A DNA stretch of 43,313 nucleotides, taken from positions 242 through 43,554 of the forward strand of contig JABDGA010000009.1 in assembly GCA_013286285.1 (NCBI GenBank). Reading direction: 5' to 3'. Made by a program: the position numbers and the translations under genes. The notes under the pieces were generated by a model. The model was not told the origin of the DNA. It was given only the letters and a program-made list of their open reading frames with translations, and did no database searches. Shown one piece after another: positions 25,996 to 36,867 of the stretch. How positions within the stretch are numbered: position 1 is the first letter of the stretch; each line of letters opens with the position of its first letter. The stretch is from Alphaproteobacteria bacterium (lineage in GTDB: Bacteria > Pseudomonadota > Alphaproteobacteria > Rickettsiales > JABCZZ01).

Positions 25996-26874
25996 ATGCA
26001 ACCTGCCAGACATGATACACAAGCCGGGTTCTCACTGTTACAACTGAGCATTGCGCTTGTCATTATGGGACTACTGGTAGGTGGTACCCTGACCGGAAGG
26101 GATTTAATCAATAATGCCATCATACGCTCACAAATTTCCCAGATAGAAAAATACAATACGGCAGTGGGGACTTTTCAGAATAAATACGGCGGATTACCGG
26201 GGGATTTACGGGTGGATCTCGCTATCCAATTCGGGTTTAATACCAGCGGCTCCAACGGCAGTATAGGCTGGCGTGACGGCAACGGTTTCATAGACGGCTA
26301 TTGCAATGGATGCGGCAACTGGGTGCTCCAGGCGTATGGTGAAACGGTTTTATTCTGGCAGGATTTAAGCCAGGCCAATATGATCGATGGCACTTTTCCC
26401 AACAGTGGCGCCACCAGCGGCGCTGTCACAACTGCTCCCTGGTCACTGGCCAAGGGAACGACCTATATTGGTGACTATTTCCCTACCGCCAAGATCGGGC
26501 AGGGAAATTTTATGTATGTTTACGATGGCCAGAACAATTATTATCAGATCGGCAGTACATGGTATTTACAGGGCGGAGATAACTGGTATGGCCTGTCAGC
26601 GATGACTTCCGTCCTCGGCAATGGCGGAATGACCTCAAACCCGGCGATGACCGTGCAGCAGGCATATAATATCGATAAAAAAATGGATGACGGCCTTCCC
26701 ACCACAGGCAACGTGCAAGCCCTCTACTTAAGCGGATGGGTAGCCAACTGGGCCAACTCACAAGCCACGGACAGCACTACTTCCTGCTATAATACCACGA
26801 CCAATACCTACTCTATCAGTAAAAACGGTGGAAACGGCATGAATTGTGCCTTATCCTTCCAGTTCCAACACTAA
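25996..26874 (+). CDS. Prepilin-like protein lacking the usual Glu5
   Basis: A 292-residue protein with a class III signal peptide: MQPARHDTQAG|FSLLQLSIALVIMGLLVGGTLTG. The fifth residue of the mature protein, normally Glu, is Gln here (FSLLQ). The body contains LPGDL, WRDGNGFIDG, ETVLFWQDLSQANMIDG, TYIGDYFPTAKIGQG and the tail PAMTVQQAYNIDKKMDDGLPTTGNVQA, which is shared with the next gene. Cys pairs near the middle (CNGCGNW) and end (SCYN, MNCA) may bond. It begins an apparent two-gene operon with a 4-base gap to the next gene. The E5 loss is typical of tip subunits such as GspK/PilX-type minor pseudopilins, so this may be a cap. Confidence 0.85.
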   Translation: MQPARHDTQAGFSLLQLSIALVIMGLLVGGTLTGRDLINNAIIRSQISQIEKYNTAVGTFQNKYGGLPGDLRVDLAIQFGFNTSGSNGSIGWRDGNGFIDGYCNGCGNWVLQAYGETVLFWQDLSQANMIDGTFPNSGATSGAVTTAPWSLAKGTTYIGDYFPTAKIGQGNFMYVYDGQNNYYQIGSTWYLQGGDNWYGLSAMTSVLGNGGMTSNPAMTVQQAYNIDKKMDDGLPTTGNVQALYLSGWVANWANSQATDSTTSCYNTTTNTYSISKNGGNGMNCALSFQFQH

Positions 26875-26878
26875 TCGT

Positions 26879-27871
26879 ATGCAACAGAGAAAATATATAA
26901 GACAGGGATTCACGCTTATCGAGGCGAGCATCGTCCTTGTAATCCTTGCACTGATTATCGGCAGCGTATTTCTCGGAAAAAGTCTTAAAAATTCTGCCGC
27001 CATCAATGCCCAGATTGCTCAGATACAAAAATACCAGGCGGCGGTGAATATGTTTCAGACCAAGTATAATAGTTATCTGCCAGGCGATATTCCCAGTCCT
27101 TATGCGCAGAACTTCGGATTCCAAACACGAGGACAAAAGAGAGGCGAAGGAGATGGTAACGGCCTCATAGAATCCAACTGCAGCAATTGCACCGGCTGCG
27201 CGGATCCCACGCAAGGGGGGTGTGGAGAGATGGCTGTATTCTGGCAGGATTTAAGCACCGCTGGTCTTATTGACACGAGTGTCCCTACCGGCACCAACCA
27301 GCCTAACATATCCGCCCCTATTACAGGGAATTGCTGCGCCTCAGTACCTGCCAGTCCAGGGCTGCTGACACAGTGGATCCCACAGGCCAAACTGGGAAAT
27401 AATAATTTTATATATGCCTATACAGGCGCAATAGACTATAATAGCGGCGCTTCTTTTACTTACCTTAATGCCAATTATTTCGGCCTTTCCCAGGTAAGCG
27501 TGATCGGGTGGAACTATGAATCCACGGGCAATAGCGGCAGCGGCGCCCAAACTATGACCGTCCAGCAGGCATATGCCATTGACAGCAAGATGGATGACGG
27601 GCTGCCGCAATCAGGCAACGTTATCGCCTGTTATCTGGATTATGATGCAAATAACGAGGGAGAAGTATGGGCGGCGGGTTTCAGCCAGCTAGGTGCGGGC
27701 AGCTCTGTCACAGGAGGAGGATTCGGCTGCGTTCCTACGACTTCGGCTACATCCTATGCAAGTAGTAACTGCTTTGATAATAACGGCGTCACGGGCGTAC
27801 AAACCTACTCCCTCAGTAAAAACGCTGCTACTCCAAACTGCGCCCTTTCCTTCCAGATACAAAATCAATAG
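26879..27871 (+). CDS. Prepilin-like protein, partner of the preceding gene
   Basis: A 330-residue protein with MQQRKYIRQG|FTLIEASIVLVILALIIGSVFLG, a standard class III signal with Glu5. The body resembles its neighbour: KYNSYLPGDIPSPYAQNFGFQ, GDGNGLIESNCSNCTGCADP, AVFWQDLSTAGLID, QAKLGNNNFIYAY and MTVQQAYAIDSKMDDGLPQSGNV. Cys-rich central loop (CSNCTGC). The start is ATG at 26879, 4 bases after the previous stop; the frame runs on upstream but overlaps that gene. Two similar pseudopilins in tandem, one with and one without Glu5, suggests a heteropolymer of which this is the likely major subunit. No secretin or ATPase is in the window. Confidence 0.85.
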   Translation: MQQRKYIRQGFTLIEASIVLVILALIIGSVFLGKSLKNSAAINAQIAQIQKYQAAVNMFQTKYNSYLPGDIPSPYAQNFGFQTRGQKRGEGDGNGLIESNCSNCTGCADPTQGGCGEMAVFWQDLSTAGLIDTSVPTGTNQPNISAPITGNCCASVPASPGLLTQWIPQAKLGNNNFIYAYTGAIDYNSGASFTYLNANYFGLSQVSVIGWNYESTGNSGSGAQTMTVQQAYAIDSKMDDGLPQSGNVIACYLDYDANNEGEVWAAGFSQLGAGSSVTGGGFGCVPTTSATSYASSNCFDNNGVTGVQTYSLSKNAATPNCALSFQIQNQ

Positions 27872-31904: not shown

Positions 31905-31966
31905 CTATATTCTTTAATATTATGTTACATATCAGAATTTACCGGAATTTGGTTGGAGTTTTTAGA

Positions 31967-34126
31967 TCAAGGAAAGTCTGGAGATTTGCCGCCGCGCTCA
32001 TTTCTCTCTAAAATCTCTCTCAAATAAGGAGGACGGTAGTGGGTTTTTTCTATTTCAGAAGAATCATTGCTTGCAGTCGGGTGTCCCTTCTCTCTGGCCT
32101 CCTTAGATAATTTATATGTTCTTTCCAGAATGTTTTTATATTGAGGAAATCGTTCTGTTAGCTTAGCAAGATCAGAGTCATCAATAGTAAGCCGATCACC
32201 TGCTTCGGTATGCATGATTGTAGATTCACTAATATTCAATTCACTTGCAAAATCGGATTGAATGAGAGAAGTAGTTTCTCTTACTGCGCGTAATACCTCC
32301 CCAAATTGATTCCTTACAGGGAAAAAGGCAAGAAATTCTGAATTCTCAAGAACATTAAAAGAATTATCCGCAAGAATATTTTTTCTCACCAGAGTATGCA
32401 CCCATTGTTTTGCCTTATCGCTAGTATTTAATGTTGGTATAGCTAATAGGATAATTCTTTCAGTTACTTCGGGAAAAGGTTGGTATAAATTTACCACTGG
32501 AGCAATAAGAGAATATGGAAAATTCATATGTCCTGATTCTAAATTAGAGAGCATAATTTTCCGAAGGCCAAGTCGGCTCTCGACTTCGCTTTGAAAGAAA
32601 TCTCTACTCTCCCTAAGCATGGCCAATATATGGCCAAGAGTTTTTCTGTTAGATTGTCCAGCCGCTAGCTGTTTTTTACACCACTGTAATAATTGTTTCT
32701 TGCACCATCCTGAATCACGTATTGGATGGTTTATATATTCCCATTCCTCTCTGTGAATTTTATCCTCTAGCCAAGAGAAGTCTATTGTGTCGTCTACTAA
32801 ATGGGAAAAAGTTTTTGCTTCACCCATGGATATACCCTGCGCGTGTTCTTTTGGATGTATTAATTCTCTAAGTAAGAAACCAAGCGACGATCTTATAATG
32901 GGAATTTTTCCTAATTCCATCCGAGAAACCTGTCCTTGATCTATATTTAATGCATGTGCTATATCGATTTGGAACTTATGTACTTTTTTCCTTCCTTGCA
33001 GCAACATCTGCCCTGCCTTCAACTGTACAGTCTTCTGTATATGTTTTAGCAAGGCTACCTTGGCACCGCTTTCAGGCATGCCCATTTCAACATATTGTCG
33101 AATACCTATCAAAGAAGGCTGTCGCTCTTCGGGTAACGCTATAAGAAAGCGTATAACTTTTTCCATAAGGGGGAGAGAAATCTCTCCTTGCTCAATAGCA
33201 GAAATGTCCGACTGGTTTAGTCCTTCTATGTGAGAAGCAATTTCTCCCGGCGTTAAACTGGTATTTTGTAACAAAGCATCCAAAACATGAGACTGGCCTA
33301 TTGCGGTTCTACGCGTTCTTTTTTGCTTAGGCATAAGGTCTGTATCTATAGCTACCGCCAGACGTGCTTTATTTATCTGTTCGCTCAAATCTTCACCGAA
33401 ATATTCCTTATATAAAGGAATAATAGAAGGATTCAAATTCGCCAACGCATTTTCCGGTAAGGGCTTTCCTATATTGTTTCTTAGACAATCGATTAATTCT
33501 TGTACATTACGCTGATAAATGGTTTTTGCCGTTGTTGTCGGTATATTATTACATGCCTTAGCAACATCGGGAAAAGACATATGAAGCATAAATCGGCAAA
33601 AAATAATCGGTTGTGCATTTGATTTTAAGGTTGCAATCCATGCAATCACATAATCATTTCTTTCTTTTTGAAGTGCGGCTTCTTCAGGCGTTGGAAGTTT
33701 TTCCTGACCGAGTATAGAACCACCCTGAATGTCAAGAATATCGGCCCAGTCTTCGTCACTCTGAGGAGATGCCAATTCACTAAAAGTGCTTGTCGTTTTA
33801 ATACGTGCGCTTCTTAAATAATCAATGCTGAGATTTCGAGTAGCCCTTGCAAAGTAATTTCTCAGATCTTTTACTATACGGCTTCTTTTTGCTTCATCAA
33901 AAGGTTGTTCTATATTTTCCTGCGCCCAATCTAAATCCTTTTTTCTTGTCACAACACTTTCTATAATAACATCTCGAAAATCATCAACCAGATCGTGGGT
34001 AGCACGATTACCCAATGCGCTGTGTGCAATTTGGTCCATTAAGCGACGCATGTCACTTGAAATCATGTAAGACCAGATGAATTCCGATTCATTTTGCGGT
34101 TCTGGATTATCACCTTGACTTGGCAT
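31967..34126 (-). CDS. ECF-sigma-like protein fused to an array of XRE-type HTH domains
   Basis: A 719-residue protein I do not recognise as a named family. Residues about 26-112 resemble sigma region 2 (LRNYFARATRNLSIDYLRSAR). Residues 152-215 resemble sigma region 4 (VIAWIATLKSNAQPIIFCRFMLHMSFPDVAKAC, then TTTAKTIYQRNVQELIDCL). Then four Cro/C1-like HTH units: about 281-331 (LTPGEIASHIEGLNQSDISAIEQGEISLP), 383-425 (HKFQIDIAHALNIDQGQVSRMELGKIPII), 498-550 (FFQSEVESRLGLRKIMLSNLESGHMNFP) and 610-662 (IQSDFASELNISESTIMHTEAGDRLTI). The pattern 'Q-x-D/E-x-A-x-x-L-x-I-x-x-x-x-I-S-x-x-E-x-G' recurs in each. No transmembrane segment. The gene is richer in AT than its neighbours and has only a weak ribosome site. 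It probably regulates transcription; a defence or phage role is possible but unproven. Confidence 0.75.
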   Translation of the reverse strand: MPSQGDNPEPQNESEFIWSYMISSDMRRLMDQIAHSALGNRATHDLVDDFRDVIIESVVTRKKDLDWAQENIEQPFDEAKRSRIVKDLRNYFARATRNLSIDYLRSARIKTTSTFSELASPQSDEDWADILDIQGGSILGQEKLPTPEEAALQKERNDYVIAWIATLKSNAQPIIFCRFMLHMSFPDVAKACNNIPTTTAKTIYQRNVQELIDCLRNNIGKPLPENALANLNPSIIPLYKEYFGEDLSEQINKARLAVAIDTDLMPKQKRTRRTAIGQSHVLDALLQNTSLTPGEIASHIEGLNQSDISAIEQGEISLPLMEKVIRFLIALPEERQPSLIGIRQYVEMGMPESGAKVALLKHIQKTVQLKAGQMLLQGRKKVHKFQIDIAHALNIDQGQVSRMELGKIPIIRSSLGFLLRELIHPKEHAQGISMGEAKTFSHLVDDTIDFSWLEDKIHREEWEYINHPIRDSGWCKKQLLQWCKKQLAAGQSNRKTLGHILAMLRESRDFFQSEVESRLGLRKIMLSNLESGHMNFPYSLIAPVVNLYQPFPEVTERIILLAIPTLNTSDKAKQWVHTLVRKNILADNSFNVLENSEFLAFFPVRNQFGEVLRAVRETTSLIQSDFASELNISESTIMHTEAGDRLTIDDSDLAKLTERFPQYKNILERTYKLSKEAREKGHPTASNDSSEIEKTHYRPPYLREILERNERGGKSPDFP

Positions 34127-34210
34127 AATGCTTCAACCATTGGCTACATTAAGAGCCCAAACCTTCGAGCACCGTCTATTGTACGGCAAGAAAATTAAGA
34201 ATTGGTTACT

Positions 34211-34227
34211 TCTCACCATAGGTGAGA
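34211..34227. promoter_or_regulatory. Palindrome upstream of the sigma/HTH fusion gene
   Basis: TCTCACC and GGTGAGA form perfect 7-bp arms with a 3-base centre (ATA). It lies about 85 bases upstream of the start at 34126, a reasonable place for an operator bound by an HTH regulator. Confidence 0.5.
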
Positions 34228-34323
34228 GGGATGATTTCAGGCAGCTCAAAAATACGGGAATAACCCCATATTAGCCCCAAATACACACGCGGCGAGTATC
34301 ACATCGCTTATCAAAGCCGCATA

Positions 34324-36315
34324 CTACTCAGCCAGCCTGATATCATCGATATGAATCGTAGATAAAGTGTGGTCGGTGGCATTCTGTATCTGCATGCCTT
34401 TCACAGGCACTTCCGCCGGGTTTAGCTGCGGCACCGGAATCGACAACTGTATCCATCCTTTTTCCGGCAGCTTGGTTTTATACACGGAAGCCAGGGGCAC
34501 CTGCACAATAGCGTTTCCGTTTTTATCCGTCAGGAATACGACGAAGTCTGAAACAGGCTGGTGGGCTAAATACATATCCAATACCAGTTTCCCGTAATTT
34601 GTTGTAGACATCGTACCACTCTTTAACTGCGCATTAAAGCCGCCATAAGGTTTGAACATTATCCCATAGGAACATGGGGCAGTAACAAATAATGACGCAT
34701 CGCAAGGAGCGCTCGCCGCCATGCTGTAGCTGTAATCATACATTGCCGGCGATACAGCATTATCGTAGATAACAAACTCTCCTGTTTGTGGCGGCACCGA
34801 AACGGGTTCAGAGGAGGTAGGTTCAGGAGTCGGTTCAGGGCTGATTGTAGGGGATGCGATAGGCGTTAGCACCGGAGTATCCGTAGGCGTAGGAGTGGGG
34901 GGAATAATAGGATTATTGACAGGAGCCGATCCACTGGAAACCACGGTAAGGAATTGATTCACCGACGTGATGGAAGCCCCTAATCCGGCGCAGGGAGAAC
35001 CGGCGGTCAAGGAAAAATCAAGTATCTGCAGCACCGGCAAGGTTGGGGTGGTGCGCATGTCATTTCCTTCCTGTTCCACGAAGCCGGTGAGATCCGAAGC
35101 GAACATCGGATTGGCCGTGACGCCGCCCAGCGTCTGGCCTTGCGTATTATACTGGCAGTTATTGTTATCGGCGGTCAGGCTGCCGTTGGCGTTCATCGCA
35201 CCGCCGTAAAATATGGAATTGGTGACCGAGTTGCCGGAGCCGCTCAGTTCCAGGTTCTGATCGAGGGCAAACGAGGTGATGTGATCCATCGTCCAGCCGT
35301 TCGCCGTGGCTCCCCATATATTATTCGCCCCGGCGGCAATAAAAAGACTGTTGGTAATGGATACGTTGCTCACCGTGACCAGCCCGTTTCCTAAAATAAG
35401 GCCGTTCTCTTTACCCGGACCGATGATGTCCTGATCAAACGTGAAATTAGCGTCCGCATTTCCCGTCCATATCTGCATACCATCATCATGGTTACACTGG
35501 TTGAACGCCGTTCCCGGATAATTCGGATTATTACGGTCATCATGCAGCCAGGAAAGCTGGATAGTAATATTGCCGACATTCACCGGCTGGAAAGCATCCT
35601 CCCCGCCGTTCTTCATTTCCATGTTCTGGAATACATGGTTGGAGCCTTGCAGCATCACCAAGGCAGGCCCCTGCGGATTCCAGCCGCTGCCCGACTGCGA
35701 CGCCGTGCCGTCGTCATAGAGGTATAGATTCCGGATAGTGTCATGCTGGGCGCCGGTATCGAACGTGATGGCCGGACCGTTATATCCATAAATGCTGATG
35801 CCGTGCCAACTGCCGCCGTCTATCACCACATAGCTGTTGTTCCCAATGGCAATGCCGGTAGAGAGCACCCCCGCTGTCTGGTAGCTGTAGCTTGGCTGGC
35901 CGCAATAGGGAAGCAGCGTTCCTCGCCCGCCGAAAAAATTCACCGCCCCATTATGGCCTGCCGCCGTTGAACGTTCTATAGTAATGGGCGAGCCGGACAC
36001 ACCGCTTTTTCCAATGATAAGCGCCTTGGAATAGGCCATTCCAGCACTTCCACCATCAATCGTCACCGTATCGCCTGGTTGGATCTCAGACCAGTTTATC
36101 TGATCCAACTCATTCCATGCCGTCGCCCACGACAGCCCATCACTGTTGCTGCCATTTTTCGAAACATAGTAGGTATTGCCGGAAGCAATGGCAAAAGACG
36201 GTAAGGAACAATATGCAGCAGTGATTAATGTGATACAAAACAGAACTGGCTTATGCATGGAATCCATCGTTTTCATTACACCAATCTTTCTATAATTCAT
36301 AATCCGCTTTATCAT
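34324..36315 (-). CDS. Secreted right-handed beta-helix protein with C-terminal carbohydrate-binding-like domain
   Basis: A 663-residue exported protein. Signal peptide: KPVLFCITLITAAYCSLPSFAIA. Residues 46-450 have beta-helix features: SGNTYYVSKNGSNSDGLSWATAW (typical N-cap), then repeated ring-like turns such as GSPITIERSTA, NSYVVIDGG, NITIQLSWLHDD, VTVSNVSITNSLF. Residues 461-510 are a Pro/Thr linker (IPPTPTPTDTPV..PEPTPEP). Residues 511-663 look like a jelly-roll carbohydrate-binding module (NYGKLVLDMYLA, GWIQLSIPVPQL, IHIDDIRLAE). The likely role is binding or cleaving a polysaccharide outside the cell, though no catalytic residues are certain. Alternative ATG codons lie within the first 20 residues. 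Confidence 0.85.
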   Translation of the reverse strand: MIKRIMNYRKIGVMKTMDSMHKPVLFCITLITAAYCSLPSFAIASGNTYYVSKNGSNSDGLSWATAWNELDQINWSEIQPGDTVTIDGGSAGMAYSKALIIGKSGVSGSPITIERSTAAGHNGAVNFFGGRGTLLPYCGQPSYSYQTAGVLSTGIAIGNNSYVVIDGGSWHGISIYGYNGPAITFDTGAQHDTIRNLYLYDDGTASQSGSGWNPQGPALVMLQGSNHVFQNMEMKNGGEDAFQPVNVGNITIQLSWLHDDRNNPNYPGTAFNQCNHDDGMQIWTGNADANFTFDQDIIGPGKENGLILGNGLVTVSNVSITNSLFIAAGANNIWGATANGWTMDHITSFALDQNLELSGSGNSVTNSIFYGGAMNANGSLTADNNNCQYNTQGQTLGGVTANPMFASDLTGFVEQEGNDMRTTPTLPVLQILDFSLTAGSPCAGLGASITSVNQFLTVVSSGSAPVNNPIIPPTPTPTDTPVLTPIASPTISPEPTPEPTSSEPVSVPPQTGEFVIYDNAVSPAMYDYSYSMAASAPCDASLFVTAPCSYGIMFKPYGGFNAQLKSGTMSTTNYGKLVLDMYLAHQPVSDFVVFLTDKNGNAIVQVPLASVYKTKLPEKGWIQLSIPVPQLNPAEVPVKGMQIQNATDHTLSTIHIDDIRLAE

Positions 36316-36437
36316 GAGCGAAACATAGAATTATATTAACATAAATTAATTAAAAAATGTTTAATTTATTTTCTTATAACCGCTCAAATAGATAAAGAAT
36401 GCGGAGCAATTTTGATTATGCCATTACCTCCCTCCTC

Positions 36438-36627
36438 GTCATCCCGGTGAGGCGGTCAGCAGACCGCCGGTCAACCGGGACCATGGTGCAACCACGGAAT
36501 AAGTCAGCAGGCTTGCGTGTGCTTCTGCCTCGCGCATGGCGGGCCTACCTGCCCGCCTACCTTCCGTTCCAGCTTGTGAAAGTGGATCCCGGATAAGCTC
36601 GCTTCTTGGCTCGCTTTCCGGGATGAC
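36438..36627. repeat. Dispersed palindromic element, type C
   Basis: Bounded by GTCATCCCGG (36438-36447) and CCGGGATGAC (36618-36627), with an inner hairpin GGCGGTC/GACCGCC. It is more GC-rich than its surroundings. The outer arms match the GTCAT...ATGAC pattern of the elements at 17471 and 30382. No gene is within it. Confidence 0.75.
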
Positions 36628-36681
36628 AATGGTGGATATTTTTATGTCAAATGACTATAAAGTGATAATGAAACACTGCCA

Positions 36682-36849
36682 ATAGTGTAGTGTCCCGCGC
36701 AACACTTTACCCCACAAGATTGAAAGTCCGTTGCCTGCGCGGGTAAACACTACACTCATTATAATGGCTAGTGTACTTTTCGTCCCATGCTGCCCACAGA
36801 CTATGGCATAAGCCATTAGGTAAAGCACTGCATCGGACGGTACACTAGC
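36682..36849 (-). repeat. 168-bp double-hairpin repeat, copy 2
   Basis: Reverse complement of copy 1 (8529-8696) with about 5 mismatches, including compensating CCCGCGCAG/CTGTGCGGG versus a perfect GC pairing variant here. It lies 18 bases past the aspartate aminotransferase stop, in the same orientation as that gene. A frame of about 55 codons stays open across both copies but has no domain. Confidence 0.88.
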
Positions 36850-36867
36850 GACGAATTTTATCAATTC

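Follow-up and report, generated by a model that had tools for sequence, protein, structure and literature searches.

Can a single polypeptide unite a sigma factor with an array of separate DNA-binding domains? This question is raised by a long gene in the window, the whole stretch of 43,313 nucleotides that was analyzed.

31967..34126, minus strand: sigma-XRE fusion ORF of 719 aa, with ATG at 34126 and stop at 31967

The analysis confirmed the observation that one 719-aa protein is an ECF-type sigma core followed by four Cro/C1-type (XRE) helix-turn-helix (HTH) units. The best reading of this fusion protein is an ECF sigma factor variant with a C-terminal regulatory extension that would act as a DNA-binding array.

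The sigma core was compared with NCBIfam and Pfam models. TIGR02937 (sigma70-ECF) matched residues 76-211 with an E-value of 1.3e-10 and 41.2 bits, 1.7 bits short of the curated cut-off of 42.9, and none of the other NCBIfam sigma models reached its own cut-off with the 719-aa protein. The SigW, SigV, SigX, and BldN models matched the isolated N-terminus with E-values of 2e-5 to 2e-3, and SigW model positions 18-180 aligned with residues 41-211. The Pfam Sigma70 region 2 and region 4 models gave nothing at E<=1 against the fusion protein. Therefore, the sigma core is divergent.

Conserved residues were judged against 32 further ECF sigma factors, drawn from class and phylum genomes. Two motifs were located in region 2.

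33917..33931, minus strand: region 2.2-like motif DWAQE, residues 66-70, aligned with D-V-A-Q-E of the 32 ECF sigma factors
33812..33856, minus strand: regions 2.3/2.4 signature YFARATRNLSIDYLR, residues 91-105, from the TIGR02937 match and the ECF alignment

The fusion protein kept 20 of the 67 columns that are strongly conserved in the 32 ECF sigma factors. The kept residues include D25, L29, G39, A42, L46, D66, Q69, and E70, and further R94, N98, L99, D102, R105, L167, and A189; Q69 and N98 are invariant in the alignment. The segment KDLDWAQENI precedes N98 of region 2.4 by 33 residues (inclusive), a spacing that fits the DVAQEAF motif of region 2.2. The conserved-residue patterns of the ECF family, D.xQE in region 2.2 and RN...D..R in regions 2.3/2.4, were found as D66, Q69, and E70 and as R94, N98, D102, and R105.

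Retention of about a third of the ECF-conserved columns would also suit a protein whose sigma part has lost polymerase binding and now provides two extra DNA-binding modules of a mobile-element protein, either a repressor or a DNA organizer. Such a binder would agree with the foreign composition of the gene described below and with the existence of multi-XRE proteins that have no sigma core, such as the 753-aa L200 and Desku_0047 and Desku_2016 (PMC3532121). However, both the 2.3/2.4 signature and the invariant-Q motif of region 2.2 are kept at canonical spacing, and a decayed sigma core is not expected to retain those motifs first. We regard this alternative as unlikely.

The predicted structure was consistent with an ECF sigma core. 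An AF2 model of residues 1-275 had a mean pLDDT of 71.5 and contained the following elements.

33788..34090, minus strand: sigma region 2, residues 13-113, four helices, superposed on sigma-E region 2
33473..33688, minus strand: sigma region 4, residues 147-218, pLDDT 83-96, matched to 2h27 and 5fgm
33335..33430, minus strand: two linker helices between the sigma core and the HTH array, residues 233-264, pLDDT about 50-73

The helices were placed at residues 13-35, 40-58, 64-82, and 88-113 in region 2 and at 147-166, 171-180, 185-191, and 197-218 in region 4. The model superposed on E. coli sigma-E region 2 with the -10 strand (4lup; Z 9.3, 2.6 A over 88 residues), on sigma-E region 4 on -35 DNA (2h27; Z 9.0, 3.0 A over 71 residues), and on SigR region 4 (5fgm; 1.7 A over 65 residues). 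The best PDB matches of the N-terminal model in Foldseek were also sigma factors; a differing placement of the two domains kept the E-values at 2e-3 to 0.1. The model has the ECF architecture, in which region 2 and region 4 folds are joined by a short linker and region 3 is absent. The alignment behind the N-terminal AlphaFold model included ECF sequences, so the model is biased toward an ECF fold; the TIGR02937 match is independent of it. The first-pass annotation had placed ECF-sigma-like regions 2 and 4 at residues 26-215 and had named AlphaFold of the N-terminus as a check. Its assignment was borne out by the TIGR02937 match and by the fit to both sigma-E folds.

In its sequence, the segment of residues 274-664 contains four XRE units.

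33113..33307, minus strand: XRE unit 1, residues 274-338, matched by HTH_37; 9.6 bits against 9.5 for the best shuffle; five-helix pattern with pLDDT 67-80
32852..33019, minus strand: XRE unit 2, residues 370-425, matched by phrog_6831; 15.0 bits, reached by 0 of 1000 shuffles; likeness to unit 4 with z 5.9
32471..32647, minus strand: XRE unit 3, residues 494-552, matched by HTH_19; 30.9 bits, reached by 0 of 1000 shuffles
32135..32317, minus strand: XRE unit 4, residues 604-664, matched by HTH_31 and by PADLOC HTH_VI (E 2.7e-12); 39.3 bits

The matches covered residues 280-330 (HTH_37), 386-423 (phrog_6831), 501-540 (HTH_19), and 607-657 (HTH_31). With the whole protein, the Pfam scores of HTH_31 (47.9 bits, cut-off 27), HTH_19 (36.7), HTH_3 (33.2), and HTH_37 (31.9) were all above their cut-offs; single units scanned alone fell below the Pfam cut-offs. 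The bit scores of the units were obtained with a profile of eight XRE domains of other proteins. Several of these eight domains had come to notice by their weak resemblance to units 3 and 4, which makes the test slightly lenient for those two units. In units 1 to 4 alike, 0 of 1000 shuffles of the unit reached its score, with a margin of 0.1 bit over the best shuffle in unit 1, and the linkers between the units gave no score with the same profile. Thus, the earlier claim of four separate XRE HTH units at residues 281-662 was upheld by sequence profiles. The units also resembled one another, with z values of 8.2 for units 3 and 4, 7.4 for units 1 and 3, 5.9 for units 2 and 4, and 4.2 for units 1 and 4.

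A profile of the four units retrieved DNA-binding XRE proteins from the PDB, including HipB, Stl, and PezA, with E-values down to 4e-6. One match was the sigma factor 1l0o (E 1.2e-5), which indicates that region 4 and XRE HTHs are alike in short profiles. A single-sequence model of residues 260-701 had a mean pLDDT of 50.5. It formed the five-helix pattern only in unit 1 and was mostly below 60 elsewhere, and fold searches with it returned only generic helical repeats. Since this model was poor and its searches were uninformative, the fourfold XRE claim rests on sequence.

Other matches were rejected. The Pfam families DIMCO_N, Fe_hyd_SSU, and Phage_TAC at the N-terminus, Stx2A at the C-terminus, and PADLOC capH/HTH_VI were put down to chance or to nothing more than the XRE domain.

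The unequal strength of the four units bears on the main rival explanation, a fused brake. In this case, the XRE array would fold back on regions 2 and 4 and block core binding until a partner or ligand binds, and some of the HTHs would no longer read DNA. The XRE character of units 1 and 2 is weak, as a brake would allow, and no anti-sigma-like ORF was noticed by eye near the fusion gene. The SnoaL (ECF41) and TPR (ECF42) extensions are precedents, and according to the available part of the ECF review, at least 26 ECF groups have members whose extensions assume the anti-sigma role (PMC8999054). However, units 3 and 4 carry clear XRE signatures and match DNA-binding members, and the known extensions of this sort described in that part of the review are not HTH domains (PMC8999054). 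We regard the brake as rather improbable.

The protein had no transmembrane stretch (KD19 maximum 1.08), which rules out a membrane-bound anti-sigma fusion, and it contained 5 cysteines in all.

The gene itself was intact, with 719 uninterrupted codons. The GC content at the three codon positions was 0.50/0.37/0.30, a pattern that looks like that of a coding gene from a low-GC source. The ribosome site, which the first-pass annotation had called weak, was indeed a weak GAAG-like element 4 nt 5' of the ATG. An assembly or fusion accident, or a decaying gene, in one incomplete metagenome-assembled genome would agree with the single copy and with the genome completeness of 53%. However, there is one 719-codon frame, the low GC is uniform throughout with coding-like codon positions, and the gene borders fall in intergenic DNA. 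We consider such an artefact very improbable.

The fusion gene has a GC of 0.39 and a GC3 of 0.30, which are low along its whole length and fairly uniform, compared to a GC3 of 0.54-0.69 in the neighbors; it is AT-richer than its neighbors, as had been noted. The flanks are kept in the complete sister species (G002), where fumarase, ChpT-like, aspartokinase, zinc-finger, and aminotransferase genes were named from sequence reading. In that genome, the slot from the zinc-finger gene to the aminotransferase gene holds aldo/keto reductase, ArsR-type regulator, and SRPBCC-like genes, also named from sequence reading. Window positions 31906-36867 compared to L045:6819-9854 outline a variable slot from lysC/zinc-finger to aspartate aminotransferase, whose contents differ between two species of the same genus. 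Because the composition is AT-rich and the slot carries other genes in the sister species, the fusion gene was probably acquired, as a compositionally foreign gene in a variable slot. The first-pass proposal of an acquired gene is thus supported as probable.

The neighbor at window positions 34324-36315 (minus strand) encodes a secreted protein that appears by eye to have a parallel beta-helix and a C-terminal beta domain, along with a linker rich in Pro and Thr. It matched no Pfam family at E<0.1, and it was not found in six other genomes (G001-G003 and three more). Searches of the three nearest genomes detected neither the fusion gene nor the beta-helix gene. Elsewhere in the window, at 25996-27871 (plus strand), two adjacent prepilin-like ORFs of 292 and 341 aa are mutually similar and partly overlapping, and they carry an N-terminal methylation motif of the GFxLxxxSI type.

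Upstream of the fusion gene, two candidate control elements were located.

34211..34227, no strand assigned: perfect dyad TCTCACC-ATA-GGTGAGA, 84 bp 5' of the start codon; possible operator, not significant alone
34183..34207, minus strand: loose ECF-promoter-like pair AAC-N19-CGT, adjoining the dyad; not significant

Together, the dyad and the AAC-N19-CGT pair would suit self-control, but chance yields as much in 7.7% of intergenic-region shuffles for the dyad and in 17% of shuffles for the pair. The perfect 7-bp palindrome reported upstream does exist, but its significance was not sustained at that shuffle frequency. No second copy of the dyad with at most 1 mismatch was found in the genome itself, and the region upstream of the fusion gene yielded neither an operator nor an ECF promoter that was significant.

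Homologue searches, which had been proposed as a further check, yielded no relative of the fusion in the collections searched. The genomes searched, 344 from the order, 385 from the class, and 398 from the phylum, gave no homologue, and none came from phage and plasmid collections searched with tblastn or from viral contigs searched with four different peptide sets. A shallow peptide scan of 84,980 species genomes also found none; it needs exact or near-identical 8-residue stretches, so relatives below roughly 70% identity were probably missed, and the sigma alignment is too diverse for such a scan. A search of 240 genomes of the class with the ECF alignment found more than 150 ECF frames, the longest other one among the matches listed being 425 aa. 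Among the matches listed from 217 genomes of the order, no other frame had four unit-profile matches. Weak matches in the class search (L050, L051, L055, L058, L060, L063, and others) were ordinary proteins or had no recognizable match, and a candidate from the phylum search (L068) was rejected as a RodZ-like XRE protein. With no homologue found, there is no sign that selection maintains the architecture. The statement that no described family with a sigma core and an HTH array is known agreed with the limited body of literature searched, where we found no described family or paper in which an XRE array is joined to a sigma core of the ECF type.

We favor, with moderate confidence, the reading of the fusion as a soluble one-piece initiation factor in which the XRE array tethers or gates the ECF sigma core. 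The sigma core (residues 13-218) would join RNA polymerase and would read -35 and -10 elements through regions 4 and 2, respectively. The four-XRE array (residues 274-664) would bind DNA beside the promoter. It would either hold the sigma core at chosen promoters or free it only upon operator binding. By tethering or gating the sigma core, the array would replace the missing anti-sigma factor and a separate activator. The ECF signal, the kept sigma residues, the sigma-E fold match, and the four mutually similar XRE units count for the tether or gate, as do the absence of a transmembrane stretch, the absence of an anti-sigma gene noticed nearby, and the occurrence of XRE fusion arrays in the same order. 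Against it count the lack of a homologue, the low number of kept columns (20/67), the TIGR02937 score just below its cut-off, the silence of the Pfam sigma models, the poor C-terminal model, and the lack of a significant operator or ECF promoter upstream. More tentatively, sigma factor, activator, and switch might reside in one polypeptide, so that promoter choice would need a multi-part upstream operator in addition to the -35/-10 contacts. The protein may be a self-contained sigma factor equipped with either a DNA tether or a brake of its own. If the tether or gate is true, a sigma factor fused to a DNA-reading array would join polymerase recruitment and operator binding in one chain; it would be a compact natural case of a tethered initiation factor, and orthogonal gene switches could be modeled on it.

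Among known systems, extended ECF sigma factors are the first comparison. At least 26 ECF groups have members with an N- or C-terminal extension for which a regulatory role is predicted, and the extensions described in the available part of the review include SnoaL, TPR, WD40, cysteine-rich, zinc-finger, and membrane/ZAS domains (PMC8999054). According to the same part, the fused regulatory domains of known ECF sigma factors sense ligands, proteins, or membranes, and its text does not contain the terms HTH, helix-turn-helix, or DNA-binding domain (PMC8999054). ECF41-type sigma factors have fused regulatory domains and no anti-sigma gene (PMC3426412). Compared to the extended ECF sigma factors covered in that part of the review, the present protein is similar in having regions 2 and 4, no region 3, a soluble C-terminal extension, and no anti-sigma gene noticed, but it differs in an extension of about 450 residues with four XRE HTHs (PMC8999054). 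This extension matched XRE models only and is not of the SnoaL, TPR, WD40, cysteine-rich, or membrane type of ECF41, ECF42, ECF56, ECF57, ECF238, and others. Unfused ECF sigma factors from Alphaproteobacteria and their relatives (e.g., L053, L054, and L070) share the core over about residues 17-224 at 18-25% identity. However, most of them are 166-300 aa in length, and even the longest other frame among the matches listed is far shorter than 719 aa.

Desku_0047 and Desku_2016 also carry an XRE array, but they are listed with three HTH_Xre domains and no sigma part is mentioned, as compared by description alone (PMC3532121). L200 (L200:599-2857, G008:C92), from the same order, encodes one clear XRE unit (residues 351-417) and no sigma core, and adjoins a ClpA-like ORF. 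It has weak XRE-like stretches near residues 149-202, 231-285, and 677-709 and low-complexity linkers, and it may be a further large regulator with multiple XRE units in this order.

The Wmk/WO-PC2 proteins (NF047948, PMC9203015) occur in the same order and, like the fusion, combine several XRE HTHs and helical linkers within a single protein; their arrays are explained by gene fusion. In phage WO, the two-domain HTH_XRE regulators are encoded by single-domain genes in sr1WO and by fused genes in most others (PMC9203015). Wmk-type tandem XRE proteins were observed in other genomes of the order (L202:289-1458, L196, L198, and L199); L202 scored 338 bits against NF047948, with a cut-off of 300, and carries a third, partial N-terminal unit. 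This match to the Wolbachia Wmk family in a same-order genome points to Rickettsiales as the probable order of the source. NF047948 was absent among the families that matched the present protein at E<=1. The Wmk/WO-PC2 proteins differ in that they lack a sigma core and have two units, or three in L202. The fusion suggests that XRE arrays, whose build-up is known from the regulators of Wolbachia phages, have been extended further in this order.
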